Positions 31,286 to 45,791 of a stretch of 64,000 nt of DNA are shown one piece after another. The notes under the pieces are model-generated. The model saw only the letters and a list, made by a program, of their open reading frames with translations. It had not been told where the DNA came from and searched no databases. A program made the position numbers and the translations under genes. Source of the stretch: Streptomyces californicus (GTDB lineage Bacteria > Actinomycetota > Actinomycetes > Streptomycetales > Streptomycetaceae). The first letter of the stretch is position 1. Each line of letters starts with the position of its first letter. The stretch spans positions 1 through 64,000 of the forward strand of contig NZ_JNZZ01000014.1 in NCBI RefSeq assembly GCF_000717645.1. Direction: 5' to 3'.

Positions 31286-31366
31286 AGGCCCCCGGGATTT
31301 CTCCTGGGGGCCTTCGGCCTGCTGTGCACTCGGCAGGATTCGAACCTGCAACCTTCTGATCCGTAG
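31286..31366. repeat. Left direct repeat (attL) of the tRNA-Arg island
   Basis: 81 bp matching 44428-44508 with one mismatch (T31305 versus C44447). It comprises the tRNA terminator hairpin and the 3' half of tRNA-Arg, ending inside the anticodon loop at CCGTAG. Beyond that the two copies diverge abruptly (GATCGG against TCAGAT). Confidence 0.95.
31325..31366 (-). pseudogene. 3' half of tRNA-Arg(ACG) left by integration
   Basis: 42 nt identical to the 3' part of the complete tRNA-Arg at 44467-44539, from the anticodon loop to the discriminator. It lacks the 5' half and cannot fold as a tRNA. Confidence 0.92.
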
Positions 31367-31525
31367 GATCGGGCAGGTCGTTGGGCCGGGACACCCTTTT
31401 CCTCCCGGCTGATCGTTGATCATCGTGATCAACGGCCTCTGCGTGCCGTCGTTGCCGTCAAGGTTGCCGTCAGCTCGGGCCAGCGGCACCGGCTCGTAGC
31501 GTAGGCGATCGCCGCAACGCCGAAC

Positions 31526-34500
31526 CTAGGCCGCCAAGGTCGTGGGCTTGGCTGTCTGCTCCAGCTCCTTGAAGATGACGTTGAGGACTTCGAGTTCCTC
31601 ACCGGTGAACAGGTCATTGGGGCCGCCCGGGGCAAGATCGGCAAACGAATCCTCGTAGAGGTCGCCCAAGCCCAGGATTCCACGCTTCGCCACTGTATCG
31701 ATGATCAACGTCAGGAAGTCGATCTGGCGGGAGCTAAGCTGCTTACCCGTGCAGAAGACCTCGAACGCCCTCTGTGCCGCCTGTCGATCCAGCCCGCACA
31801 GCCCGCGCACGAACAGCCCAAGGCCGCCGGAGGACCGCACCTCGTCGAGGTCCTCCGGGAAGGCGATGGCCTCTGCCAGGAAAATCTCCTCCAGGTGCGC
31901 GAGATCGAGTTCGGTGATCTGCTCATTGAGACGCAGTTTGCGCACCACCGGCTGGTCCTCATGACGCAGGAGGTAGGCCCGGGCCTTCTGCTTGAAACGC
32001 TGTTCGTCCGTGCCCTGGGGCATCCCCTGGATCTCGGCCTCGGTGATGTCACCGAGCTGGTCGACGAAGTCGGTATAGACGACGTTCCGCTTGACCTTGG
32101 GGTCGGTGAGCCGGGCGAGCCGGCGCATACGGCGGCGCATATCCTCCAGCATCGGGAGGGTCACATCGCTCCACCACTCCTCGCCTGCCACCGCTTCCAG
32201 CAGCACGGCCTGTTCGCCGACCGCCGGGATGTTCGTCTTGGTGAGCAGGTTGGACGCGATGTCCTGGATCTTCGCGCGCAGCTTGGCGAAGTCCTTGCCG
32301 CCTTCCAGCGCGGCTAGCTGGAGACCGTACGCCATCAGGTCGAACCGCTTGGCCTCCTCGCCCGTCTCTTCGTCGTCCGGGCGGTACTCGCTGGGCAGTC
32401 CGAGCAGATGGTCGCGGATCGCGGTGTCCGCGTCGTCGTCCACCCGGTGCCAGCTTCCGAAGTCGCTGAAGACCTCGACCTCGCGGCGGTGCGGGCGGAC
32501 CAGGAAGTTGTCCAGGTTCATGCCGGTGACAGTGTGATGCAGCCGGTGGGCTAGTGACCAGCGGATCTCCGCCTCTGTGCCGATCGCGTCGGGGCCGGCG
32601 TCCCGTGCCGGGTCAGGCTGCTGCCGCTTGTCCAGGACCCGTACCAGGTCGAGCTGACGCTGGAGGAGCTTTTCGGTGAGGGTAACGGCCCTGCGCCCCT
32701 CCGATCGGTCGAGCTGACTGTTGAAGAAGTCGATGTTGCCGCAGAAGTCGAAGACGTAGAAGTTCCGCTTGCCGTGGTCGGGGTTATCGGGGTCGGGGCC
32801 GTAGAGGGCGGGGCGCAGGCGGGTGCCGCGGCCGATCATCTGCCAGAACTTGGTCTTGGAGAAGACCGGCTTGGCGAAGACCAGGTTCACCACCTCGGGC
32901 ACGTCGATGCCGGTGTCAAGCATGTCGACGGAGATGGCGATGTCGGGGGCGTTCGGCGGGTTCTTCGGGTTGGAGAAGTCGTCAATGAGGGACTGGGCGT
33001 ACGTCTCCTTGTACGTGATCACGCGCGCGGCGTGGCCGGCACCCTGCGGGTAGTTCGCGTTGTATCGCTCCTCTATGTACCGGGCGTGGTCGTTGTTCTT
33101 AGCGAAGATGATTGTCTTGCCGAGCCGGTCGCCGCCCTCGACGCGGTGGCCGCGCGTCATCAGCGTCTCCAACATCGTGTCCACGGTGTTCTTATTGAAG
33201 AGGACCTCGTTCATCTCGTGCCGACTCACCGCGTCCGGGATGTCACCGTCCTCGGTCCACTCCTTAGCGTCCCACTCAGCCTTCTCCTCCTCTGAAAGAT
33301 CGGCGTAGCGGATGCCCTGCTCCATGAACTTCAGCGGCACCTTCACAGCCTTGGGCAGGACGAGGTAGCCCTCGGCGGCGGCTTCATGGAGGTCGTAGGA
33401 GTCGGTCGGGACCCCGTCCTCCATGGCGAAGAGCTTGTACGTGTTGTGGTCGATCTCGTCCTTGGGCGTGGCGGTCAGGCCGAGCAGGAGCGAGTCGAAG
33501 TAGCGGAACAGCTCGCCGTACTTCGCGTACACGGAGCGGTGCGCCTCGTCGATGACGATCAGGTCGAAGTGGCCGGGCCCGAAGCGGCGGCGACCCGCAC
33601 CGTCCATGACGTCGATCTGCTTCATCATCGTCTGGTACGTGGAGAGGTAGACGCGGGCCGCGGCGGCCTTGTCGTCGAGCAGGCTGGCCACGGGGGTGTT
33701 CGGCAGGTTCTCCTTGAACGCCTTCATCGCCTGGGTGACCAGCGCCTGCCGGTCGGCGAGGAACAGCACCCGCTGCGCCCAGCCCGCCTTCATCAGCTGG
33801 TCCACGAGGGCCACGGTGGTACGGGTCTTGCCGGTGCCGGTCGCCATGACGAGCAGCGCCTGACGGACGCGGTCCCGCTCAAAGGTCTCGCCCACTCGCT
33901 TGATCGCACGAAGCTGGTAAGGGCGGCCAGCGATCTTCTCGTTCACTGGCGTGGACGTGAGGGAAAGGCGTCCGGCGCGCTGACGGATGTGCCAGTGCAG
34001 CTCATCCTTGGTGAAGAAGCCCTGCACCTGGCGGGGCGGGTAGCCGAGGCCGTCGTCCCAGAGGTAGGTCCGGTACCCGTTGGTGTAGAAGATCACCGGG
34101 CGGCGGTTGAACTGGGCTTCGAGCGCGTCGGCGTACAGCTTCGCCTGCTGCTGCCCGTCGCGGGCGTCCCGCTGGGTCTTCTTGGCTTCGACGACGGCGA
34201 GGGGCTTGCCGTCATCGCCCCAGAGCACGTAGTCGACGTACCCCTTGCCCGTCTTGGTGGGCATCCCGGTCGCTATCGGGTACTCGGTGTCCTTGCCCGG
34301 GATGAGGAGGTCCCAGCCCGCTTCCTTGAGGAGCAGGTCGATGAAGGCGTCGCGGGTTGCCTTCTCGTCATAGTCGTGGGTGTCCTGTACCGCCTGATTG
34401 GCGGCCTTGGCGGCGGCGATCTGCTTCTTGAGCTCTTCGAGCTGTTGGGCGAGGTCCGCGTTCTGCGCGCGCTCGGCGGCCAGCTCTTCCGCCTGCTGCT

Positions 34501-35104
34501 TGAAGCGCGCCTCGTCCTCCGCCTCCTTGGCCTTGAGTTCAACCTGCTTTAGCGCGCGGGCCTGCGGGGAAAGCGGGCGCGGTACGGCGCTGGTGTCGAA
34601 CTCCAGCCCGGCGGGCGGCAGAGCCGAAGCCTGGCGGGTGTAGGTACGGGCGAACCAGTAGAGGGAGTGGAACAGCTCCTTGACGCTGGCCTCGGCGACG
34701 GTCTTCGGGACAGGGGCGGCCTTATGCACGGCGTTGTTGCCGTGCCGGCGGATGAGGTCCATCTTGGCGTTGACCGTCGGCCCGACGAGCTGCCGAAAGC
34801 TCGGCTCGTGGAGCATCGCCGCGAGGTCCTTCTTGTAGGGCTCGCTGAGGCTGCTGTCCGTGTCGTACATCCATCGCGCTGTGATCTCGATGGCGCGGCG
34901 AGCGTAGAAGCAGGCGGCACGGGGGTCGTGGTGGATCAGCCGCTCGGCGCGGGTCGCCTCATCGGAGAGGACTGGCCACTCGGCACGAAGGAAAGTGAAG
35001 TTACCGCTTGCGGTGCGGCCAATATTGTCGGCGGTGGCGCGGTCGCGGGCCTGCTCATCCTGTTGGGCGTGCGACTGGTCGTCGCTGTTTCGCTCGTTCC
35101 CCAT
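31526..35104 (-). CDS. hsdR: Type I restriction enzyme R subunit
   Basis: 1192 residues, translocase/nuclease subunit. An N-terminal DUF4145-like helical domain (about 35-160) and coiled coil (180-245) precede the PD-(D/E)xK nuclease: D291 in DYVLWG, then E306 and K308 in VVEAKK. Helicase motor: motif I ATGTGKT (421-427), DEAH (519-522), LGLTATP around 542, and motif VI QMIGRGTRLRP. The C-terminal third is the EcoEI-type R_C region that docks on HsdM. All motifs are intact. GGGAGGG precedes the ATG. It is the last gene of hsdM-hsdS-hsdR, 190 bases after hsdS. Activity depends on hsdM, which is frameshifted here. Confidence 0.95.
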   Translation of the reverse strand: MGNERNSDDQSHAQQDEQARDRATADNIGRTASGNFTFLRAEWPVLSDEATRAERLIHHDPRAACFYARRAIEITARWMYDTDSSLSEPYKKDLAAMLHEPSFRQLVGPTVNAKMDLIRRHGNNAVHKAAPVPKTVAEASVKELFHSLYWFARTYTRQASALPPAGLEFDTSAVPRPLSPQARALKQVELKAKEAEDEARFKQQAEELAAERAQNADLAQQLEELKKQIAAAKAANQAVQDTHDYDEKATRDAFIDLLLKEAGWDLLIPGKDTEYPIATGMPTKTGKGYVDYVLWGDDGKPLAVVEAKKTQRDARDGQQQAKLYADALEAQFNRRPVIFYTNGYRTYLWDDGLGYPPRQVQGFFTKDELHWHIRQRAGRLSLTSTPVNEKIAGRPYQLRAIKRVGETFERDRVRQALLVMATGTGKTRTTVALVDQLMKAGWAQRVLFLADRQALVTQAMKAFKENLPNTPVASLLDDKAAAARVYLSTYQTMMKQIDVMDGAGRRRFGPGHFDLIVIDEAHRSVYAKYGELFRYFDSLLLGLTATPKDEIDHNTYKLFAMEDGVPTDSYDLHEAAAEGYLVLPKAVKVPLKFMEQGIRYADLSEEEKAEWDAKEWTEDGDIPDAVSRHEMNEVLFNKNTVDTMLETLMTRGHRVEGGDRLGKTIIFAKNNDHARYIEERYNANYPQGAGHAARVITYKETYAQSLIDDFSNPKNPPNAPDIAISVDMLDTGIDVPEVVNLVFAKPVFSKTKFWQMIGRGTRLRPALYGPDPDNPDHGKRNFYVFDFCGNIDFFNSQLDRSEGRRAVTLTEKLLQRQLDLVRVLDKRQQPDPARDAGPDAIGTEAEIRWSLAHRLHHTVTGMNLDNFLVRPHRREVEVFSDFGSWHRVDDDADTAIRDHLLGLPSEYRPDDEETGEEAKRFDLMAYGLQLAALEGGKDFAKLRAKIQDIASNLLTKTNIPAVGEQAVLLEAVAGEEWWSDVTLPMLEDMRRRMRRLARLTDPKVKRNVVYTDFVDQLGDITEAEIQGMPQGTDEQRFKQKARAYLLRHEDQPVVRKLRLNEQITELDLAHLEEIFLAEAIAFPEDLDEVRSSGGLGLFVRGLCGLDRQAAQRAFEVFCTGKQLSSRQIDFLTLIIDTVAKRGILGLGDLYEDSFADLAPGGPNDLFTGEELEVLNVIFKELEQTAKPTTLAA

Positions 35105-35294
35105 GCCGGTGTCCCTCCCCTGTTACATGGCCTCTTTCGTACGGATCCGGGACGCCCCGAACCTGCACGAGGCCGACTTTTCTTGTCTATCTCCTACAGC
35201 AAAACCACCACCCTTGGGCCGGACTCCCCTGCCCGGCCGCATGGGCGGCATGTGACAGCGGCCGGCGCCGGCCACCGTGCGCGACGAGAGCGAC

Positions 35295-36509
35295 TTACGC
35301 TGCTTCGCCGGTCGCTTCATAATTCCAGAGGGCGCCGGAGAAAGCACGGTACTGGAGAGAGGTAAAGAGTTCATCCAGGGTGGCGAGGTTTCTCGCATGA
35401 GATTCCTGTAGTTGCCTAACCCGCGAAACCCTGTCAAGAAACTGACGCTGTAGAGAAACTTCCGGTAGCGGAATCAAGAATTCCGCGATCTGCCGAAAAT
35501 TCAAGCCCGGCTTCGTCTGCCCGTATTGCATATCTGAAATCTGCCTCTGCCCACCGAACGGGATACTCAGAAAGAAGGAGAGGAAGTCCGGAACAATCTT
35601 CTCCTGCACAGGGCGAAGAATAGCAACGTGCTGGCTCACATACGCTCCAGAAAGATTTTCCGGAACCGCTGAAACCCTCCCGATGCGTGAGCCAGTGATC
35701 GTGAGCAGCACGTCTCCAACCTCAACCCGAGTACGGCGTGCCTCAGCATTGTCAGGAGCTTGGACGTAAGCGACTTCGTCAATCTCGATAGAATTCATTT
35801 GGACATCAAGCGACCGAATGAAGATGCTACCGGAATCCGAGTAATACTTCGCCCATCCACGGCCACCACTCGTAATGAATGAAAGTTGCTCCCCGAGCGG
35901 CACTACCGGATGACCTTCTCCCGTGCCGAACATTTCGAAAAAGATGGACTGGGCAAGGTCGTCGAGGAGAGTGATGGCCTCCCGACGCTTGGTGCGAAGA
36001 ATGTCCACCTCGTCGAGGACGGCGGCGATACGCTTCTGATACGCAAGGGGAGGGAGTGGGATTTTAAGAGACAGCAGGCTGTCTTTGCTCACCGTGGCTT
36101 GATTTACCCATTGCTTACATAGGCCACGGAAGACTCCCGACTCGAACTGAGAAGTCAGCCAACGACTGAGGTATTTAGGGTCGAGTTCCTCGTCATCGGT
36201 ACGAATTCTCTGGAAGTGATTACTGTAGACCACTTCCTCATCGATGCCGGACCAGAATAGCGTCTTCCCCACCAAGTCGGGACTGTTAGTAGCATTGAAT
36301 AGCACGTCGCCAGGGCGTAGCTTACTTTTCTCAATACCCGGATGATTCCGAGGCACTCGTCGTTGTTTGCTCAGATCAATGCCACCCGACTTGGTGACAT
36401 TGTTCATCCGGATTTGAAAGACCCCATTTGCGTCAACCTCTCCGCACGCAAATCCCGGCTTGACCTCGTTAACAAGATCCTTGAGCGATCGCCTTCTCAG
36501 CTCGCTCAT
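35295..36509 (-). CDS. hsdS: Type I restriction-modification specificity subunit
   Basis: 404 residues with the usual duplicated layout: target-recognition domain 1 (about 1-150), conserved helical spacer (PLAYQKRIAAVLDEVDILRTKRREAI), domain 2 (200-355) and a second helix (SLQRQFLDRVSRVRQLQESH). It determines the bipartite DNA target for both methylation and cleavage. Its start overlaps the hsdM stop as ATGA. GC content is visibly lower than elsewhere in the window (AATTC, AAAATT, GAAAG runs), as is common for exchanged hsdS alleles. Confidence 0.93.
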   Translation of the reverse strand: MSELRRRSLKDLVNEVKPGFACGEVDANGVFQIRMNNVTKSGGIDLSKQRRVPRNHPGIEKSKLRPGDVLFNATNSPDLVGKTLFWSGIDEEVVYSNHFQRIRTDDEELDPKYLSRWLTSQFESGVFRGLCKQWVNQATVSKDSLLSLKIPLPPLAYQKRIAAVLDEVDILRTKRREAITLLDDLAQSIFFEMFGTGEGHPVVPLGEQLSFITSGGRGWAKYYSDSGSIFIRSLDVQMNSIEIDEVAYVQAPDNAEARRTRVEVGDVLLTITGSRIGRVSAVPENLSGAYVSQHVAILRPVQEKIVPDFLSFFLSIPFGGQRQISDMQYGQTKPGLNFRQIAEFLIPLPEVSLQRQFLDRVSRVRQLQESHARNLATLDELFTSLQYRAFSGALWNYEATGEAA

Positions 36510-38024
36510 ACCAGCATTCCCTTCAGCTCCTCCGTGCCCTTGGCGATTTCCTCGTTTAGAAGCTCAAGGTCCGCCAAGATCTCCGTGGGCGTCCGCGTCA
36601 CGATTTCCTCGTGGACCGTCTCCTTGTAGCGGTTGAGGGAGAGGTCGTAACCCTGGGCCGCGATGTCTGCCTTTGGTACGCAGAAGCTCTGCTCGGTTCT
36701 CGCCCGGTCCCTCTCCGTGCCGTCTCGCTCCTGCCAGCGAGCCAGAACGTCCGGAAGATTGTTCTTCACGAGTTCGTCCGGCGTCAGTGGGTCACCCTGC
36801 GGGCGTACGCCCAGGCGATCCTCCGGCAGCAGCGCGTTGCGCTTGTCGTCCAGGCTCAAACCGTCCGCCCGCACGTCATAGAACCAGACGTGGTCCGTAC
36901 CGCCCGAGTCCGTCCTCGTGAAGAACAGAATCGCCGTCGATACACCGGCGTATGGCTTGAAGACCCCGCTTGGGAGCTTGACCACCGCCTGGAGCTGCTG
37001 TTCCTCCACCAGAATTCGGCGCAGCTCCTTGTGCGCCTTGCTCGAACCGAAGCACCCCATCGGGGACGATGACGGCCGCCCGGCCGCCGGGCTTCAGGAG
37101 CCGCAAGAACAGAGCCAGGAACAGCAGTTCCGTCTTCTTCGTCTTGACGATGCGCTGGAGGTCCACCGCCGTGGACTCGTAGTCCAAGCTCCCCGCGAAA
37201 GGCGGGTTCGCAAGGATCAGGGAGTAGCGCTCCGCCTCGTCGGCCGCGCTCTCCGCAAGCGAGTCACGGTGCCGAATGTCCGGGTTCTCCACGCCATGGA
37301 GCAACATGTTCATGGAGCCGATGCGAAGCATCGTATTGTCGAAGTCGAAGCCGTGGAATGTCTCCTCGTTGAAGCGCTTGCGCTGCTCGACACCTAGCAG
37401 CGCCTCGCGGTGCACCCGCTGCATGTACGACGCCGCCTGCACCAGGAAGCCGGCCGTGCCGCACGCCGGGTCACAGATTTCGTCGCGCGGCCCCGGCTGG
37501 GTCATCTCGACCATCAGGTCGATGATGTGGCGTGGCGTGCGGAACTGGCCGTTCTGGCCAGCCGTGGCGATCTTCGCGAGCATGTACTCGTAGATGTCGC
37601 CCTTGGTGTCGCTGCTGTCCATGGAGATGTCGTCGAGCAGGTCGACGACCTTCGCCAAAAGGTTGGGCCCTGGGATCGTGAACCGGGCGTCCTTCATGTG
37701 GTGGGAGTACGTCGATGCGTCCCCGCCCATGCGACGCAGGTACGGAAAGACGCCATCAGCGACGAACCCGTACATGATCTCGGGGTCCTTGACCTTGAAG
37801 TTCTGCCAGCGCAGCTCCTGCTGGTCGTCCGAGAAGAAGGGGGCCAGGTCGGCCTTGCCCGTTGCGGTCGCCTTGCGGTCCTTGCGGGTCTGGATCTCGT
37901 CCAGCCGCTTGATGAAGAGCAGGTATGTGATCTGCTCCATCACCTCCAGCGGGTTGGCGATGCCACCGGACCAGAACGCGTCCCAGACGCGTCCCACCTT
38001 GCTCTTCAGTTCGCCCGTAATCAC
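36506..38024 (-). pseudogene. hsdM: Type I methyltransferase subunit HsdM, frameshifted
   Basis: N6-adenine methyltransferase. The first frame (start GTG 38024, reading MITGELKSKVGRVWDAFWSGG) runs through the SAM motif DPACGTAGF (185-193) and catalytic NPPF (273-276) to IVPDGVL near residue 325. At about 37048-37052 the reading frame breaks. The remainder, FGSSKAHKELRRILVEEQQL to the stop at 36506, continues in another frame. The local sequence GTGCTTCGGTTCG would read through as GTG CTC TTC GGT TCG if two bases (CT) were restored, so a 2-bp deletion in a CT repeat is the simplest explanation. Both catalytic motifs lie before the break; the lost part is the C-terminal region. A sequencing error is possible. 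Confidence 0.85.
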
Positions 38025-38310
38025 ACGGAGGATCCTACGGCCCCCGAGTCCCACACCATCCAGACTTGACAAGCCCGAGACTCCACCATCTTGCGTCTCA
38101 GGCATCGGCCTCCGCGCACACCGTCTTGCCGGGCCCCATCCCGCAGCTTCGCTGTCACGCCGGCTACCTGGGCGGCGTTCCTCTACTCCGCCCGTCAAGG
38201 TTGGCCGAAACCCGTACCACCTAACCGTGCTCTCGGCTTGACCGAACGTAGTCGGTCTCGGCAGGATCGGCCTTAGCAAGCAAAATATCGCGCATATGGC
38301 TGCGCAGACC
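38025..38310. other. Intergenic region between hsdM and DUF3800 gene
   Basis: A 286-bp stretch shared by the divergent hsd operon and the DUF3800 gene. I see no gene and no convincing palindrome before the hairpin at 38311. Confidence 0.45.
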
Positions 38311-38340
38311 CTGTGGCCGTCCCTTCTGGGGCGGCCACAG
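38311..38340. terminator. Hairpin CTGTGGCCG / CGGCCACAG
   Basis: 9-bp perfect stem (38311-38319 with 38332-38340) and a 12-base loop, directly before the DUF3800 start at 38360. Its place between a promoter region and a start could mean attenuation rather than simple termination. Confidence 0.6.
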
Positions 38341-38359
38341 ATGCGTTTTGGGAGATTCG

Positions 38360-39298
38360 GTGCATCTGTGCTACATCGACGAGGCGGGCAACGGGCAGAC
38401 ACTCGACCCCATGAGGCCTGACGCCCCTCCAGTCCTCGTCGTCGGTGGCTTCACCGTGCCCCGGGCCCAGATCAAGTCCCTCACCTGGGCCTTCCTCGAC
38501 ACCAAGAAGCACTACCGGCCGCAGTTGCGGAACGCGGAGCAGCTCTCCGAGGTAATCCAGCACGAGATCAAGGGTTCGGATGTCCGCAAGAATCTCCGTG
38601 CCGGCAACCACAGCTGGCAACGTGCTGCCATGGAGCTAGTGGCTTCGCTGCTCGACATGCTGGAATCCCACGAAGCCCGCATCCTCGCCCGCGTGTGGAT
38701 CAAACAGGAAGGGCTGGCGTTCGACGAGTCCGGGGTGTACCCGGCCTCCGTCGCCGCGCTGAACGAGACCTTCCAGGCTCAACTCGCCCATGAGCACTCG
38801 CGCGGCATGATGGTCCTCGACAGCCGCACGAAGGTGAAGAACGCTCCCAATGTGCACTGCGTCACCACCCGTAAGTACCGCACGGGCGGTGACAGCCTCC
38901 GCGGGGTAATCGAGTCGCCGGTCTTCGGCCACAGCGACACCCACACACTTCTCCAGCTCGCCGATCTCGTGGTGTCCTCCGTGCTGTTCCCCATCGCGTG
39001 CCACGCCTACCTGAGCGACGTGACGTGGAACGTGCACTGCGACGACGCTTACCAGCCATTGCGGGAGCAGTTCGGGCAGCGATTGAAGAAGCTGCAGTTC
39101 CGGTACCAGGACCCCATGGGGAAGTGGCGCGGCGGGATCGTCGTATCCGACCGGCGGACCCAGCAGACGTCCAGCCTGATGTTCGGACCTAAGGAGACGG
39201 TCACCGTGCCGACTACTGCGATCCCGGGACAGCCAGGGACTCTGACCCCCGAGCGACGCGAGGCCGAGCTGGACGGCGGTTTGTCGCCTCTCCTGTAA
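38360..39298 (+). CDS. DUF3800 domain protein
   Basis: 312 residues from GTG at 38360, where GGGAG sits at a good distance; a TTG at 38348 is less likely. The N-terminal HLCYIDEAGN and the internal SPVFGHSDTHTLLQLADLVV are the DUF3800 signatures, a presumed RNase-H-like fold with conserved acidic residues (D in YIDEAGN, D in QLADLV). DUF3800 proteins are frequent in defence islands and mobile elements, often next to restriction systems as here, but their role is not established. Single gene, divergent from hsdM. Confidence 0.85.
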   Translation: MHLCYIDEAGNGQTLDPMRPDAPPVLVVGGFTVPRAQIKSLTWAFLDTKKHYRPQLRNAEQLSEVIQHEIKGSDVRKNLRAGNHSWQRAAMELVASLLDMLESHEARILARVWIKQEGLAFDESGVYPASVAALNETFQAQLAHEHSRGMMVLDSRTKVKNAPNVHCVTTRKYRTGGDSLRGVIESPVFGHSDTHTLLQLADLVVSSVLFPIACHAYLSDVTWNVHCDDAYQPLREQFGQRLKKLQFRYQDPMGKWRGGIVVSDRRTQQTSSLMFGPKETVTVPTTAIPGQPGTLTPERREAELDGGLSPLL

Positions 39299-39404
39299 TG
39301 GGATGACCTCCCCCTATTGGTCAGATCGACACTAAGTCGCTGAACTCTGCTGTCTCCGAGGTTCGCTCTGCGATGCTGGAGGTCGATCGAGAGGGGCCGC
39401 AGCG

Positions 39405-39938
39405 ATGCAGTGGAAGATCCACGGGGAACGTCCGATCTACGAGAACAGCTGGGTGAACCTGTGGCTCACCGACGTCGAGACGCCGGACGGGAACCGCTGG
39501 GAGCACCACGTCGTCAAGCTCCGGCACCTGGCCGTAGCCGCCGTCGTCAACGAGCGACGCGAGGTGCTGATGATGTGGCGGCACCGCTTCATCACGGACG
39601 CCTGGGCGTGGGAGCTGCCTATGGGGCTGGTGGAGGAGGGCGAGACGCCGGCCGATGCGGCGGCCCGTGAGGTGCTGGAGGAGACCGGCTGGCGGCCCGG
39701 CCCGATCACACCCCTCATCTACGCCGAGCCTGCCAACGGCATCACCGACTCCCAGCACCACGTCTTCCGGGCCGACGGAGCGACGTACGAGGGCCCGCCG
39801 ACCGAGAAGAACGAATCGGACCGGATCGAGTGGATCCCGCTGGCCGACGTGCGGGGCATGATCGACCGGCGCGAGATCGTCAGCAGTGGCTCCCTCGTCG
39901 GGCTGCTCTACGTCCTCATGGACGAGGCGATCCGCTGA
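39405..39938 (+). CDS. NUDIX hydrolase
   Basis: 177 residues. The Nudix box is complete: G at the start of GLVEEGETPADAAA, then REVLEETGW, matching GX5EX7REUXEEXGU. Preceding strands (HLAVAAVVNERREVLMMWRHRF) and the trailing IEWIPLADVRGMI resemble ADP-ribose pyrophosphatase-type members. It hydrolyses a nucleoside-diphosphate-linked compound; which one cannot be told. Its last 23 bases overlap the end of the convergent XRE-regulator gene. Confidence 0.9.
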   Translation: MQWKIHGERPIYENSWVNLWLTDVETPDGNRWEHHVVKLRHLAVAAVVNERREVLMMWRHRFITDAWAWELPMGLVEEGETPADAAAREVLEETGWRPGPITPLIYAEPANGITDSQHHVFRADGATYEGPPTEKNESDRIEWIPLADVRGMIDRREIVSSGSLVGLLYVLMDEAIR

Positions 39939-41262
39939 TCTGGCGGGGCAGCGCTTCCCGGAGCCGGGACTCGAACGCCACCGCGGCCGGTTCACGGCGG
40001 AAGGGCTCCAGCTGTTCGTGGAACTCCCGGAGGTGGCCGGCGACTCGTTGCGAGCTGACGGCCGCCGCCGGGGCCAGGGCGTCCATGGCCGTGTGGCACG
40101 CCTCGTCGATTTTGCCGCGTTGGAGCTGGGTGCGGGCGAGCCAGAAAGCGTGGAAGGCGCGGCCTCGGTGATTCGTCTGGTGTTCTCGGCGCAGAGCGTC
40201 CGCAATCAGGGGTTCGGCGAAGGCGGCTTCGCCCAGGCGGCCGTGCGCGATACCGGTGTCCACGATCAGCTTCGGCTCGTCGAAGTAGGCGACCCAGGCC
40301 GGATCCGGATCACCGGTGCTGATCCGTCCGAAGTGGGTATGCGCTTCCGAGATCGCGGTGTGGGTCGCGCCGTGATTGCCGAGGGTGGCGTGGGCGAAGG
40401 CTTCGCGCATCGCGAGCATGGCCAGCACGCGCGGTGTCGTCCCCGCGGCCGTTCGGGCTTGGTCCTGGGCGGCCGTGACGAGTGCGAGGGCGTCGCCGGG
40501 CTTGTCCTGGTAAGTGGCCTGGAGGCTCATGCAGGCGAGGACGTTGGCCATGAACTGGCGGTCATCGATGGCCTTGGCCAGGCCGAGGGATTCGGTGAAG
40601 TAGGCACATGCCTGGTGGTACTGGCGGGCGTCGAAGTAGGTCCATCCGGTGAGTCGGGCAAGTTCGGCCGCGATGCTGTACAGGCCGTCCCGCAGAGGAG
40701 CCGGCCGCTGCTCCTTGAGGAGATCGACGACGTAGCGGAGCTGGCCGACGACCGCCGGTCGTAAGGTCTCGCCACCGTGCTCGTCGTCCCGGCGCCAGTA
40801 GTCCGCGATCGACGAGTGCAGCGCTTCCAGCGTCGACGGGCTGAGGTCCCGATCGGCCGCCAGGGCGAGAATGCTGTCGACGTCCGCCCCCGGCAGTCCG
40901 GCGACAAGCGGCTCGACGGCTGAAGCCGGTACCTCGGCCGGTTCGCGGGGCGTGACCGTCAGGCTGGGTGGCGTCTCCCAAGAGCGTCGGGCGAGGCCGA
41001 GCATGTGTCCGGGGATGCGCAATCCGTCCGAGATCCGTTCGATCACATCCATGTGCAGCAGCTGTCGCCGTCCGGCGATCACCTCGCCCACGCGGCTCGG
41101 GGTCAGGTCGCAGCGTCGCGCGATCATCGATGGATAGATGCCTGCTCGTGCCTTGACCAGCTGAAAGATGCGGCCGAAGTCTCTGGCCTGGCATGCCTCG
41201 ATCATCATTGGGTCCGTGAGCAGGCTGACCGGGAGTTCCTTCGAGCGAGATGGCTCGGGCAT
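39916..41262 (-). CDS. XRE-family regulator with TPR-like domain
   Basis: 448 residues. The N-terminal HTH at about 28-80 (FQLVKARAGIYPSMIARRCDLTPSRVGEVIAGRRQLLHMDVIERISDGL) is followed by a long helical-repeat region (160-440) resembling tetratricopeptide repeats, as in peptide- or partner-sensing regulators. Such proteins in Streptomyces are commonly encoded beside the small-protein or peptide genes they control. It is divergent from the radical-SAM operon, and the palindrome TTACCCAAGTTGGGTAA lies between them, so I infer it controls that operon and itself. Confidence 0.88.
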   Translation of the reverse strand: MPEPSRSKELPVSLLTDPMMIEACQARDFGRIFQLVKARAGIYPSMIARRCDLTPSRVGEVIAGRRQLLHMDVIERISDGLRIPGHMLGLARRSWETPPSLTVTPREPAEVPASAVEPLVAGLPGADVDSILALAADRDLSPSTLEALHSSIADYWRRDDEHGGETLRPAVVGQLRYVVDLLKEQRPAPLRDGLYSIAAELARLTGWTYFDARQYHQACAYFTESLGLAKAIDDRQFMANVLACMSLQATYQDKPGDALALVTAAQDQARTAAGTTPRVLAMLAMREAFAHATLGNHGATHTAISEAHTHFGRISTGDPDPAWVAYFDEPKLIVDTGIAHGRLGEAAFAEPLIADALRREHQTNHRGRAFHAFWLARTQLQRGKIDEACHTAMDALAPAAAVSSQRVAGHLREFHEQLEPFRREPAAVAFESRLREALPRQISGSPRP

Positions 41263-41320
41263 CGGGCACGCTCCGGCATGAGGACTACGGATCGCTGCAC
41301 TTGGTCAACCGAGGGTGATG

Positions 41321-41337
41321 TTACCCAAGTTGGGTAA
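41321..41337. promoter_or_regulatory. 17-bp palindrome between XRE gene and radical-SAM operon
   Basis: TTACCCAAGTTGGGTAA: 8-bp perfect arms around a single central base. It lies 59 bases upstream of the XRE start and 49 before the first operon gene. It is the only strong palindrome in the 123-bp divergent region, hence the likely XRE operator. Confidence 0.78.
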
Positions 41338-41385
41338 TCCGCTTGGCCTTTCTGGCCGGGTCCGTGGATCGCGATGCTCCTGGCC

Positions 41386-41586
41386 ATGGCGAACAGACAG
41401 GACGACGTACGGATGACGTTGCGGGTCTCCCACGACTCCGGCCAGACGTGGGGGCCTCTCACGGAGGTACGCGTGGGCGAGGACCCGGTGGTCCCGGAGA
41501 ATCCGGGTCGCTACCCGCCCTGCGTCTGCCCCCGCTGCTCGCAGCAGGCCCGAAATGCCGTCGGGTCCTTCCGGATGGTGTCGTGA
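41386..41586 (+). CDS. Small CxCPxC protein (66 aa), first gene of radical-SAM operon
   Basis: Reads MANRQDDVRMTLRVSHDSGQ onward and ends with PPCVCPRCSQQARNAVGSFRMVS. The CVCPRC cluster may bind a metal. An ATG at 41374 would add four residues. Neither start has a strong ribosome site. The stop overlaps the next ATG (TGATG). Not a family I recognise; its conserved role is suggested only by the tight operon. Confidence 0.6.
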   Translation: MANRQDDVRMTLRVSHDSGQTWGPLTEVRVGEDPVVPENPGRYPPCVCPRCSQQARNAVGSFRMVS

Positions 41587-41915
41587 TGCGTTGCGTGCAC
41601 TGGCGCCGAGTGCCCCTCAACCTGGCACGGGAAGCGCGGGAGCAGTCGGCCGCCCCGTACGTCGACAAAGCGGTGCAGTGCCAGCTGTCCGCGCACGACG
41701 AGGGTGAGCACTTCGGTCTCCTCACCGACGCCGGGACGTACGGGACCGCGCTGTGGCTCCGCTGGCACGGGACGGACGAAGCGGAACTTGTCGTGCTGCC
41801 GGACTGCCCGGTGGTCGCCCCGGGTCCTGACGGTGAGGGCTGCTGTCTGTTCGCCGACCACGCCATGCAGCACACCTGGGAAGACGACCTGGAGGAGGTC
41901 TCGTGCACCAGCTGA
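41586..41915 (+). CDS. Conserved-looking 109-aa protein, second gene of operon
   Basis: Starts MRCVHWRRVPLNLAREAREQ. Later it has QCQLSAHDEGEHFGLLTDAG and a C-terminal CCLFADHAMQHTWEDD. The paired Cys/His residues (C, H, E-H, CC, H, H) look like metal ligands or a structural zinc site. No catalytic domain recognised. Overlaps both neighbours (1 and 13 bases). Confidence 0.6.
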   Translation: MRCVHWRRVPLNLAREAREQSAAPYVDKAVQCQLSAHDEGEHFGLLTDAGTYGTALWLRWHGTDEAELVVLPDCPVVAPGPDGEGCCLFADHAMQHTWEDDLEEVSCTS

Positions 41916-42124
41916 TCGCGAGCCCGCGCAAGACCCGGCGCCCTCGCTCGCCTCGCAACGAACAGTGCGGGGACTGCGGTGGCAGCGGCGCCAACTCGTC
42001 CGGCAAGACCTGCGGCACCTGTAACGGGCTGGGCGAGATCCACTGCCGCGCCGGCCGCCAGACGTCCCGTGTGCTGTCCCGCTCCGTGATCCGGAAGGAG
42101 GGCCACCGATGGCCCACGCTCTGA
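41903..42124 (+). CDS. 73-aa DnaJ-type zinc-finger protein
   Basis: GTG start with GGAGGAGG upstream. The centre, CGDCGGSGANSSGKTCGTCN followed by GLGEIHC, contains two CxxCxGxG-like motifs as in the DnaJ zinc domain, with basic flanks. Possibly a peptide-binding or carrier protein for the adjacent modification enzyme. Its 3' end overlaps the radical-SAM start by 16 bases. Confidence 0.65.
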   Translation: MHQLIASPRKTRRPRSPRNEQCGDCGGSGANSSGKTCGTCNGLGEIHCRAGRQTSRVLSRSVIRKEGHRWPTL

Positions 42125-43233
42125 TCGCCTCCCCGTTCCTCGACGGACACCTTCTCCTCAAGCCGGGAGCAAGGGCCGGCGCCCGAATCTCGGCCGACCA
42201 CTTTGAGGGCCTGTGCCAGGCCGCTGCCGACGGTGAGTCGCTTCCCGCCTGGGCGGTGCAGGCCGCCGCCGACGTGTGGGGCCTGGACCTGGGCGGCCGA
42301 CCCGTGCAGGGCACGGTGCTGGTGCGTGAGCCGTCCGCGTACGGCTACTGCCGGGCCTCCTGGGAGATCAACCTCGGCTGCAACTTCGGCTGCAAGCACT
42401 GCTACCTCGGCGAGCGACCCTTCTCCGGCCTCGGCTGCGAGGACAAGGTGCGGCTGCTGGACATCATGCGCGAGGCCGGTGTCCTCTGGCTCCAGATCAC
42501 CGGCGGCGAGCCCACCATGGATCCCCACTTTCAAGGTGCCTACCGGTACGCCTGGCAGGCCGGGATGATGCTCACCATCTCCACCAACGGCTCGCTGCTC
42601 TGGCGACCTGAGCTCCTCAAGCTCTTCCGGGACTGCCCGCCGTACCGACTGGTGGTCAGCATGTACGGGGCGAGCGAGGAGTCCTTCGACACGCTCACCC
42701 AGCGCCGCGGGGCGTGGAAGGCGTTCCGGCGCGGCATGGACGCCGCCCGTGAGGCGGGGCTTCCGCTGCGTATCAACGTCGTGGTGACCGAGGACAACGC
42801 CTCCGAGGCCGACGAGATGGCCGCCATCGCCGACGAGTGGAACGTCGAGAACCACGCGTACACGAACATGACGCCCACGATCTACGGCGGCGGAGAGCCG
42901 CTACTTGCCCAGTCCGCCGCCCACCTGCGGCAGCGCAAGCCGTTCGCCGGCTGCAACGCGGGACACACCTTCTTCCACGCCGACCCGCACGCCAAGGTCT
43001 CGATCTGCAAGGTCGGCCGCGACGACCAGATCGACCTCATGGCCGAAGGCATCGACGGCCTCACCCGGCTCGGCGCCATCGCCGACCGCCTCATGCTTCG
43101 CACCGGAGGGTGCGAGGGCTGCGCCCTGTCCGGCACCTGCCGGGTCTGCCGCCCCCTGGCCAAGCACTACCAGGAGGCGAAGGCGCCGCTGCACAGCTAC
43201 TGCCAGCACGGAGACAAGGAGAACGCCTCATGA
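42109..43233 (+). CDS. Radical SAM / SPASM-type peptide-modifying enzyme
   Basis: 374 residues. The iron-sulfur motif CNFGCKHC has its three cysteines at 91, 95 and 98; GGEP is at 132-135. The C-terminal 90 residues contain at least eight Cys (CNAGH, ICKVG, GGCEGCALSGTCRVCRPL, YCQHG), a SPASM-like domain that holds auxiliary clusters. About 85 residues precede the radical-SAM core and could form a precursor-binding domain. The family makes C-S, C-C or other crosslinks in ribosomal peptides. RBS AAGGAGGG. The stop overlaps the start of the 54-residue peptide gene as ATGA, so the peptide is the natural substrate. Confidence 0.9.
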   Translation: MAHALIASPFLDGHLLLKPGARAGARISADHFEGLCQAAADGESLPAWAVQAAADVWGLDLGGRPVQGTVLVREPSAYGYCRASWEINLGCNFGCKHCYLGERPFSGLGCEDKVRLLDIMREAGVLWLQITGGEPTMDPHFQGAYRYAWQAGMMLTISTNGSLLWRPELLKLFRDCPPYRLVVSMYGASEESFDTLTQRRGAWKAFRRGMDAAREAGLPLRINVVVTEDNASEADEMAAIADEWNVENHAYTNMTPTIYGGGEPLLAQSAAHLRQRKPFAGCNAGHTFFHADPHAKVSICKVGRDDQIDLMAEGIDGLTRLGAIADRLMLRTGGCEGCALSGTCRVCRPLAKHYQEAKAPLHSYCQHGDKENAS

Positions 43234-43394
43234 CCCCGCCCGTACCGGTGACCATCCTCCCCGGCCCGCCGGCCTCGGCCCGCCGCGCGGCCCCGCCCGT
43301 CGCGACCGCGTCGATCACCGCCGTCCAGGACCTCGACGTGATCGTAGAGAGCGCGGAGTGCTCCTGCGACGCCGGTGACGACAACCCCCACTGA
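43230..43394 (+). CDS. Candidate RiPP precursor peptide (54 aa)
   Basis: Begins MTPPVPVTILPGPP and ends with the core-like ESAECSCDAGDDNPH. The middle segment ITAVQDLDVIVES resembles, in my memory, the leader of FxLD-type peptides. The only Cys residues are C44 and C46; C46 with D50 forms a Cx3D pattern like that of ranthipeptides, in which a radical-SAM enzyme links Cys to Asp. Translationally coupled to the radical-SAM gene. No homologue could be searched, so its precursor role is inferred from size, position and residues. Confidence 0.7.
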   Translation: MTPPVPVTILPGPPASARRAAPPVATASITAVQDLDVIVESAECSCDAGDDNPH

Positions 43395-43482
43395 CCGACA
43401 CGATCCGGTCAACTCCGTTCAGGCCCCGGCGTGCTCGCGTCGGGGCCTGAGCCCTGGCCGGCTCACCGTTAGGGTGCCGCTC

Positions 43483-44349
43483 ATGTTCTTCCGCTGGGAC
43501 TGGCTCCGGCCCCAACTGACCGTGCCGATCGTGCCGACCCTCGGTCCCGTCCACCCCGACGCCCTGACCGTCAGCGTGTTCGAGGACATCCTGCGAGCGG
43601 CCGACACGGGTGACTTCCTGCCCTACGACAAGGACCGGCGCTGGGGCGGCGAGAAGGACGAGAAAGTCCTCCGCGAGGACGTGGTTCACCAGCCCGAGCA
43701 CACTCTCATCCCCACCCTGAGTCGGCGTGGACGCGGCACTGTGAAGGTCTTCGCCTACGGGCTTCGCGACACCGTCGTGGATGAGGCCGCCGAGCTGGCC
43801 GCGAAGCTCGCCTCCACGCGCGACGTGGCGGGCGCCCGGATCGTACGCCCTCTCGGTCCCGAGACCGCACACCCGCGTGGCACCCGCATCCAGCTGAAGG
43901 ACTTCACCGTCCGCCCTTGCCCCGCCCCGGACGGCTCCGTCCGCCCCATCACCGCCTGGCCGACCACCGTGCAGACGACGTTCGCCCCGTTCGCCGAGAC
44001 GATGGCCGCCCACGGCCTGGCCTTCCTCCACACTCAGATGCTGGCCGGCACATGCGGCCCGGTCCTCACCGCAGCCGTCGAGCGCCGCATCGTGGGCGCG
44101 ATCGGCCCCATGGAGGTGCTCCCCGATGCCCTTGGACGCCACCAGCTCATGCCCCAATACTTCGCCGTCCTCCCCGAGGTCCGGGGCCGGGGCCTGGGGC
44201 GCGTCCTGTGGCGGGCCGCCATGTGCTGGGGGCAATTTCACGGCGCCGACTACCAACTCCTCCAAACAGAGGTCGAAGGCCCCTCAGACCGGCTGTGCCG
44301 AGCCGAAGGGCTGACATCCCTCGGCTTCAGTCACACCACTCAGGCGTGA
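43483..44349 (+). CDS. GNAT-family acetyltransferase
   Basis: 288 residues from ATG at 43483 (AGGGTG upstream); an upstream GTG at 43375 lies inside the peptide gene and is unlikely. The C-terminal half is a GNAT domain with acetyl-CoA motif LPEVRGRGLGRVLWRAA and the downstream YQLLQTEVEGPSDRL. The N-terminal 150 residues are of unknown fold, with VKVFAYGLRDTVVDEAAELAAKLA. It is 88 bases after the peptide gene; it could acetylate the product for maturation or self-protection. Last gene of the island before attR. Confidence 0.85.
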   Translation: MFFRWDWLRPQLTVPIVPTLGPVHPDALTVSVFEDILRAADTGDFLPYDKDRRWGGEKDEKVLREDVVHQPEHTLIPTLSRRGRGTVKVFAYGLRDTVVDEAAELAAKLASTRDVAGARIVRPLGPETAHPRGTRIQLKDFTVRPCPAPDGSVRPITAWPTTVQTTFAPFAETMAAHGLAFLHTQMLAGTCGPVLTAAVERRIVGAIGPMEVLPDALGRHQLMPQYFAVLPEVRGRGLGRVLWRAAMCWGQFHGADYQLLQTEVEGPSDRLCRAEGLTSLGFSHTTQA

Positions 44350-44427
44350 CTGTGGAGGGAAGACGACTGGACGACTACCTCGGGCCGACAAGGTTGCTGT
44401 ACTTCACTGCTGTACGGGCAACACGAG

Positions 44428-44455
44428 AGGCCCCCGGGATTTCTCCCGGGGGCCT
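44428..44455 (-). terminator. Terminator of tRNA-Arg(ACG)
   Basis: AGGCCCCCGGG (44428-44438) and CCCGGGGGCCT (44445-44455) pair perfectly over 11 bp around a six-base loop, just past the tRNA 3' end. The left island copy carries one base change that weakens this stem. Confidence 0.85.
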
Positions 44456-44508
44456 TCGGCCTGCTGTGCACTCGGCAGGATTCGAACCTGCAACCTTCTG
44501 ATCCGTAG
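44428..44508. repeat. Right direct repeat (attR) of the tRNA-Arg island
   Basis: 81-bp copy of 31286-31366, here continuous with the full tRNA-Arg gene. Confidence 0.95.
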
Positions 44509-44539
44509 TCAGATGCTCTATCCGTTAAGCTACGAGTGC
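44467..44539 (-). tRNA. tRNA-Arg(ACG)
   Basis: 73 nt. The acceptor GCACTCG pairs with CGAGTGC, and the discriminator is A. The anticodon loop CTACGGA gives ACG, whose A34 is the substrate for TadA at the start of the window. T-arm GGTTCGAATCC. It is the integration site of the island; the integrated element restores the 3' half. CCA not encoded. Confidence 0.97.
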
Positions 44540-45215: not shown

Positions 45216-45791
45216 ATGTTGCGCCGTCTCGCCCTCACCGCCGTCGTCCCGCTCGCCGCGCTCGCCACCGCCGTACCGGCGACCAGCGCCACCGCTTCCG
45301 GCCCCGAGTCCTTCGTGCCGGCGCCCTCCGCCGTGCCGACCTCCGGACCGTTCGCCGCCGCCCGGCCCGCCCTGGGGCCGCTGCCCATGCCGCTCCCGCT
45401 GCCCGGCTTCCTGGACGGCGGGGCGGGGACCGCGCCCGGCGAGGTGGACGAGGCCCGGACCCGGCTCACCGTGAGCGTCGAGAACACCGGCGTGCCCGGG
45501 GCCGACGGAACGTTCGAGCTGGAGTGCGGGCCCACCGGGGGTTCCCACCCCGAGGGGCAGGCCGCCTGCGACCGGCTGGCGGAGGCCGGGGCCACCCGGT
45601 CCGGGCGGCAGGAACTGTTCCGCGAGACCCCCGAGGGCACGATGTGCACGATGATCCACGGCGGCGACGCCTTCGCGCGCATCGTGGGCACCTGGGAGGG
45701 CCGGCGCGTGGACACCACCGCGACCCGTCGCGACGGCTGCGAGATCGCCCGGTGGAACGGCCTCGTCCCCGTGCTCCCGGACGTTCGCTAG
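45216..45791 (+). CDS. Subtilisin inhibitor (SSI) family secreted protein
   Basis: 191 residues from ATG at 45216 (GGAG upstream). Signal peptide MLRRLALTAVVPLAALATAVPATSATA, then a Pro/Ala-rich spacer and the SSI domain (about 85-190). The first Cys pair lies in ELECGPTGGSHPEGQAACDRL; the second comprises MCTMIHGGDA, the reactive loop, and DGCEIARWNGL. By alignment with the classical CPMVY loop, P1 is Met and P1' Ile, suited to subtilisin or similar proteases. It differs after P1' (IHGGDA), so specificity may have shifted. The 75-residue linker ahead of the domain is longer than in standard SSI. Confidence 0.86.
   Translation: MLRRLALTAVVPLAALATAVPATSATASGPESFVPAPSAVPTSGPFAAARPALGPLPMPLPLPGFLDGGAGTAPGEVDEARTRLTVSVENTGVPGADGTFELECGPTGGSHPEGQAACDRLAEAGATRSGRQELFRETPEGTMCTMIHGGDAFARIVGTWEGRRVDTTATRRDGCEIARWNGLVPVLPDVR

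Follow-up and report, generated by a model that had tools for sequence, protein, structure and literature searches.

A candidate radical SAM RiPP cassette from Streptomyces californicus with alternative acetyltransferase and kinase partners

In the biosynthesis of mycofactocin and pyrroloquinoline quinone (PQQ) a radical S-adenosylmethionine (SAM)/SPASM enzyme, MftC or PqqE, acts on a conserved precursor peptide, and a similar pairing appears in the gene family described here, which was studied at positions 41263..44349 of a 64,000-nucleotide stretch of Streptomyces californicus DNA (the window). Unlike those systems, the window enzyme lies far under the family cut-offs, and the peptide has a different core and a GNAT or kinase as partner. 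The maturases SuiB (streptide) and SkfB (sporulation killing factor), whose core chemistry is other than that expected here, share 13-17% identity with the window enzyme. We read the locus as a radical SAM cassette for a ribosomally synthesized and post-translationally modified peptide (RiPP), with a 54-amino-acid (aa) peptide as the precursor and interchangeable cap enzymes, on an island integrated at a tRNA gene; from the sequence data we give this reading a probability of roughly 0.72.

The ranthipeptides (PapB/PapA, freyrasin) resemble this family in their radical SAM maturase and in the Cys-x3-Asp/Glu of the substrate. According to a passage in PMC9413430, PapB links Cys to the beta carbon of Asp or the gamma carbon of Glu and tolerates 0-6 spacing residues. 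By analogy a PapB-type bond may form in the window family too. The ranthipeptide motif Cx3[D/E] was found in 106/106 loci with two-Cys cores, and the 45 one-Cys loci carry Cx2D instead. In contrast to ranthipeptides, the family is actinobacterial, has one motif in a near-frozen C-terminal core rather than six, and has a GNAT or kinase partner; its thioether is a prediction only.

Both partner enzymes have counterparts elsewhere. Passages in PMC7794033 and PMC10373908 describe an APH-kind phosphotransferase in class V lanthipeptide/kintamdin pathways, which in kintamdin phosphorylates Ser so that, with a lyase, elimination can follow (PMC10373908), whereas the kinase of the window's relatives tracks Tyr. 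GNATs of RiPP pathways appear in passages of PMC10373908 and PMC12636437, namely GodH of goadsporin, which acetylates the N-terminus once the leader is removed, and PflB of the Pseudomonas pfl pathway; unlike these, the window GNAT adjoins a radical SAM maturase. A DLD segment in the window-type leader recalls the FxLD-family lanthipeptides, and UniRef names one 93%-identical peptide homologue (P0192) an FxLD family lantipeptide. An identity as FxLD lanthipeptide precursor found no support, as five peptides tested matched none of the NCBIfam precursor families. No lanthipeptide synthetase was found among the part of the neighbour proteins that was scanned.

Precursor peptide and radical SAM enzyme

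Reading of the sequence and its open reading frames (ORFs) confirmed six co-oriented ORFs at 41263..44349 and a divergent regulator, with gene order and overlaps as the first-pass annotation had described them. The features central to the argument are:

42109..43233, + strand: radical SAM enzyme, the putative maturase; 16-base overlap with the 73-aa ORF upstream
43230..43394, + strand: 54-aa putative precursor peptide; ATGA overlap with the radical SAM gene; under purifying selection
43359..43391, + strand: conserved core CSCDAGDDNPH
43483..44349, + strand: GNAT-fold acetyltransferase (PF00583), putative partner enzyme of non-Tyr cores; starts 88 bases past the peptide

Enzyme homologues occurred in 71/392 Streptomyces genomes sampled and 64/297 in the family (samples overlapping in part), and in 17/394 in the class, 16/200 in family f17 and 6/35 in family f18 (partly overlapping). 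The 173 loci counted include 44 from the first genome set, 58 of the 79 places in the 392-genome Streptomyces sample, most whole-length family and class places that were new to the set (one or two of them broken) and 15 from f17, where three further places were already among the loci. The window itself, enzyme fragments from the Streptomyces and family samples, and 16 near relatives with shorter loci were left out. The loci overlap, some genomes being the same strains, and the enzyme tree was built on 160 distinct sequences; the enzyme of L251 was too short for it.

A peptide was present behind the radical SAM gene in 166/173 loci. With one detector applied to the same first 100 loci, a peptide with such a tail was found behind 95/100 radical SAM genes versus 3/383 other genes, so the earlier claim of a real peptide coupled to the enzyme was upheld. 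In 76/95 loci the two were joined by a 4-base overlap (a 4-base offset was preferred where several starts were possible). Seven loci (L019, L038, L042, L044, L045, L229 and L235) gave no readable peptide, and most of their enzymes are broken, cut or oddly long. A later check of the 16 near relatives outside the 173 showed a peptide in 15, each with a non-Tyr core, a GNAT and no kinase; L059, with a cut enzyme, has none. In a reverse search of 199 genomes the peptide places at E <=1e-6 numbered 42, and comparison of the two lists puts 41 of them beside an enzyme place. At the remaining place (G101:C2:76626-76709, L252) a peptide remnant is followed by a kinase-like frame, recognized by eye, and no radical SAM gene was found there. 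On these sequence comparisons the pairing of precursor and maturase is well supported.

The window peptide has two Cys, both in its tail (...AECSCDAGDDNPH). Among 27 close relatives the ratio of nonsynonymous to synonymous polymorphism (pN/pS) was 0.01 over the last 12 codons and 0.45 over the leader, and three other groups gave 0.186, 0.08 and 0.0 for the core and 0.78, 0.70 and 0.93 for the leader. As pN/pS is far lower in the core than in the leader in all four groups, the C-terminus is, by this measure, the conserved part and the leader the less constrained one, which answers the question raised by the first-pass annotation. Of the two outcomes that annotation had set against itself, an enzyme mostly lacking the peptide and a peptide unconserved at the protein level, neither was seen.

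In the first 151 peptides the cores fell into two patterns. All two-Cys cores (106/106) read CxCx3[D/E]xxP, with Cys at -9 and -7 and Asp/Glu at -3 from Pro, and all one-Cys cores (45/45) read Cx2DNP, with Cys at -5, Asp at -2 and Asn at -1. The peptide detector itself requires Cys, Pro, and D/E/N two or three places before Pro, and therefore the exact Cys-acid spacing is the informative part; for the last 15 loci a looser detector was used than for the first 151 peptides and the 383-gene control. A profile search returned 600 database peptides; among the 120 listed, 107 show the two-Cys pattern and 13 the one-Cys pattern.

At E <=1 no NCBIfam 20.0 family matched any of five peptides tested, in line with the first-pass annotation, which did not recognise the gene set as a named class. 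In titles and abstract openings of the literature, the scope of that search, no such gene set is described, and a text search for the core motif returned only papers unrelated by title. The decRiPPter candidate list (PMC7794033) could hold this set under no name. Judged by sequence, the RiPP-type family is real and widespread but patchy, and none of the peptides tested has a named family in NCBIfam 20.0.

In the enzyme, CNFGCKHC occupies residues 91-98, and PF04055 scored above its cut-off. The CxxxCxxC core (C91, C95, C98) was present in 95/95 aligned enzyme sequences, and seven SPASM-type Cys (C282, C300, C335, C338, C344, C347, C365) in 94 or 95 of 95. The seven-Cys SPASM motif ends in a Cx3C pair; here the last pair is Cx2C. 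The enzyme model aligned best with the RiPP maturases SkfB and SuiB, with BlsE and MoaA near-tied, and to this extent the resemblance to RiPP maturases suggested earlier was borne out. Strands and helices are predicted at residues 5-57, and the SkfB and SuiB alignments start at residue 3-4 and so span this N-terminal domain, which may be a RiPP recognition element (RRE). The best NCBIfam match was the mycofactocin maturase TIGR03962 (78.5 bits, cut-off 265), and the StsB-type sactipeptide maturase NF045574 gave 59.2 bits (cut-off 625). Membership in a known NCBIfam maturase family was rejected, since the best 25 of 49, 49 and 52 matches per enzyme were all partial and below cut-off. Identity as a defence-system enzyme was also rejected, as PADLOC gave partial viperin matches only, which are explained by the general radical SAM fold.

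The near invariance of the core across genera, together with the best NCBIfam match being a mycofactocin maturase, however far under its cut-off, would also suit a cofactor or signal: the frozen core would then yield one small conserved intracellular molecule, as for PQQ or mycofactocin, and the GNAT or kinase would finish it. That no exporter or protease was noticed to recur, with rough gene calls and part of the families scanned, points the same way. The patchy occurrence (71/392 Streptomyces genomes, 17/394 in the class sample) and the position of some copies between tRNA-derived repeats speak against a cofactor, and we consider it rather unlikely.

Partner enzymes and the residue after the core proline

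Downstream of the peptide, the 166 loci had a GNAT alone (65), an APH-like kinase alone (95), both (4) or neither (2). The GNAT proposed earlier as the partner is thus regular, but it is one of two alternatives, and the kinase is the commoner (99/166, four also with a GNAT); the GNAT as a fixed partner was rejected. The presence of the kinase followed the residue after the core Pro. Of the loci with Tyr there, 99/100 have the kinase, and of those with His, Asn or Phe, 66/66 lack it, so that 165/166 fit; the window core ends in His and is accompanied by the GNAT. The rule was drawn from the first 95 readable loci and then held in 56/56 and 14/15 new ones. Other peptide features predicted the kinase in at most 116/151 loci, versus 151/151 for Tyr.

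The tree of 160 enzymes calls for 5 changes of the Tyr, 5 of the kinase (present or absent) and 6 of the two taken jointly; shuffled labels require 49 changes on average. Because the trait follows descent, about five independent switches, and not 166 loci, are the real sample size. Two switches are the clearest. In one, the sister group of L238 (Phe, GNAT only), at support 1.0, consists of four loci that combine Tyr with both GNAT and kinase. In the other, L118 (Phe, without kinase) stands beside L091 and L101 (Tyr, kinase), and directly behind its peptide sits the family of genes that in L101 and L131 comes after the kinase. The co-evolution makes a strong case in the sequences for a link between Tyr and kinase, and the simplest inference is that the APH-like kinase acts on the core Tyr.

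A constant C-terminus would likewise be expected if the peptide were a small partner protein whose tail docks on the enzymes, with the GNAT or kinase acting on something else. The fixed Cys-acid spacing, and the fact that the transferase at a locus can be predicted from a single side chain, are as expected of a chemical target, and we consider a docking protein very unlikely.

HxDx4N and DW are catalytic motifs of APH-type kinases, and in loose form they were found in 85/90 and 90/90 frames. The acetyl-CoA motif of GNATs, RxxGxG/A, was present in 62/63 GNATs, the remaining one being too short to score. The window GNAT matched PF00583 with 21.0 bits (cut-off 20.7), and its model, with a predicted local distance difference test (pLDDT) score of 94.7, matched two-domain and tandem GNATs over the whole length.

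Under the preferred reading of a RiPP cassette, the N-terminal domain of the enzyme would bind the peptide leader, and the enzyme would join a core Cys to an acidic side chain four residues further along, forming a CxxxD thioether with 2 Da lost for each. The partner enzyme would cap the product after crosslinking. Where the core has Tyr, the APH-like kinase would cap it by phosphorylating the Tyr hydroxyl; the His core of the window would be acylated by the GNAT on a different nucleophile, perhaps the amine that becomes the N-terminus once the leader is gone. Release of the core would fall to an unlinked protease of the host, and the cap would serve as final tailoring or self-protection. A bolder version, which we put forward tentatively and hold to be possible rather than probable, is a mobile RiPP class in which the kinase phosphorylates the Tyr of the crosslinked core, lineages losing the Tyr also lose the kinase, usually with the GNAT as alternative cap, and the cap is a self-protection or activation switch of a product that may act inside cells.

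If the RiPP reading holds, this is a tractable peptide family, made up of a pair of core genes plus a cap gene and present in Streptomyces (71/392 genomes) and two other families of the class, and it yields the sharp, falsifiable prediction that the transferase required depends on a single side chain. A kinase acting on a RiPP Tyr would add a kind of modification; literature titles, the extent of that search, named no Tyr kinase acting on a RiPP core. A protective cap would provide a resistance marker to guide the search for the bioactive product.

Several observations weigh against the RiPP reading. The Pfam SPASM family was not matched by the enzyme. By sequence the nucleoside enzyme BlsE is its best solved relative and SkfB ranks lower, and by fold the near-tie of BlsE and MoaA with SkfB and SuiB extends over the radical SAM core. 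A near-frozen core is unusual among RiPP antibiotics, and the lack of a recurrent protease or exporter at the loci, within the limits given above, counts here as well. On the kinase side, L237 has a Tyr core and no such kinase within 6 kb, holding only a remote APH-like frame, seen by eye, on the opposite strand at +1223 to +2150. All three strict kinase motifs, the Lys motif included, occurred in 55/90 frames, and all motifs in loose form in 79/90. Five kinases of one group (L104, L124, L125, L126 and L129) have Glu replacing the catalytic Asp (HTE, HxE), and several kinase frames look broken. When two kinases were searched, PF01636 gave 21.8 bits (cut-off 23.2) for one, and the second had no APH match.

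Regulator, accessory genes and genomic island

The other features of the locus and its surroundings are:

39405..39938, + strand: NUDIX hydrolase adjoining the regulator, not core; PF00293, 78.7 bits; 36/173 loci
39916..41262, - strand: divergent XRE/TPR regulator, NsdA family; NCBIfam NF053720, 340 bits (cut-off 75)
41321..41337, no strand: 17-bp palindrome TTACCCAAGTTGGGTAA between regulator and operon; single copy in the 7.78-Mb genome
41386..41586, + strand: 66-aa ORF with CxCxxC, accessory; 23/173 loci; no Pfam or NCBIfam family passes its cut-off
41586..41915, + strand: 109-aa ORF, accessory; TGATG junction with the 66-aa ORF; 27/173 loci; no Pfam or NCBIfam match
41903..42124, + strand: 73-aa ORF, accessory, with CxxC motifs resembling a DnaJ zinc region; GTG start, 13-base overlap; 34/173 loci
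31306..31366, no strand: left 61-bp direct repeat, identical to 44448-44508
44448..44508, no strand: right 61-bp repeat, overlapping the 3' end of tRNA-Arg(acg) at 44466-44539(-)

The regulator falls immediately outside the stretch 41263..44349. An NsdA-type regulator match was found within 6 kb upstream in 61/173 loci (tblastn, E <=1e-3) and in 36/100 of the first loci at E <=1e-5; two further XRE-type regulators were matched in 12 and 6 of the first 100 loci, and an ORF of HATPase type lay upstream in 31. The palindrome occurred whole upstream of the enzyme in 12/173 loci and as its inner part alone in 3 more. It is the probable operator, and the NsdA-type regulator would control the set through this private 17-bp site. 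A sigma-70 promoter scan found no promoter.

The first-pass annotation had taken the six genes as one unit that included three small metal-binding proteins serving as binding partners. All three small upstream ORFs occurred together in 19/173 loci, every one with a 92-97% identical enzyme; as their joint presence is confined to these near-identical enzymes, they are lineage-bound, stand outside the core set and are not general binding partners. CxxC-type motifs were visible by eye in the 66-aa and 73-aa ORFs only, the 109-aa ORF having none, and metal binding by the former two is at best plausible. The NCBIfam DnaJ match of the 73-aa ORF was partial and weak (E 7.8e-5, far under cut-off). The start of this ORF, HQLIASP (41903-41925), resembles that of the radical SAM protein, HALIASP (42109-42135), which would fit a duplication of the gene start.

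The cassette lies inside a 13.1-kb island (31306-44508) integrated at tRNA-Arg(acg) and flanked by the 61-bp direct repeats. The island also contains type I restriction-modification genes hsdR, hsdS and hsdM at 31526-38402, with hsdM split over two overlapping frames, and a DUF3800 protein at 38348-39298. A tRNA was found within the fetched stretch in 30/173 loci. In L005, L037, L040 and L084 the tRNA 3' end is repeated across the cassette, and no further tRNA gene lies there; in L007 and L019 the repeated copy is a tRNA gene in its own right.

Such surroundings would also suit a cargo that mobile islands carry for phage defence or as a toxin-antitoxin-like system, with an intracellular modified peptide that the GNAT or kinase neutralises. 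GNAT and APH are classic inactivating folds, and both the 61-bp tRNA-Arg repeats around an island that also carries type I restriction genes and the four loci repeating the tRNA 3' end count for such a cargo. PADLOC, however, found no model for the GNAT, the regulator or the DUF3800 protein and gave the partial viperin matches alone for the enzyme, and we regard this explanation as unlikely.

Two minor observations concern the surroundings. In L005 an integrase-like frame, recognized by eye at 8758-10318, lies between the cassette and tRNA-Arg, and 44-bp repeats flank the cassette. In the window a subtilisin-inhibitor-like (SSI) protein is encoded at 45219-45791, just beyond the island.

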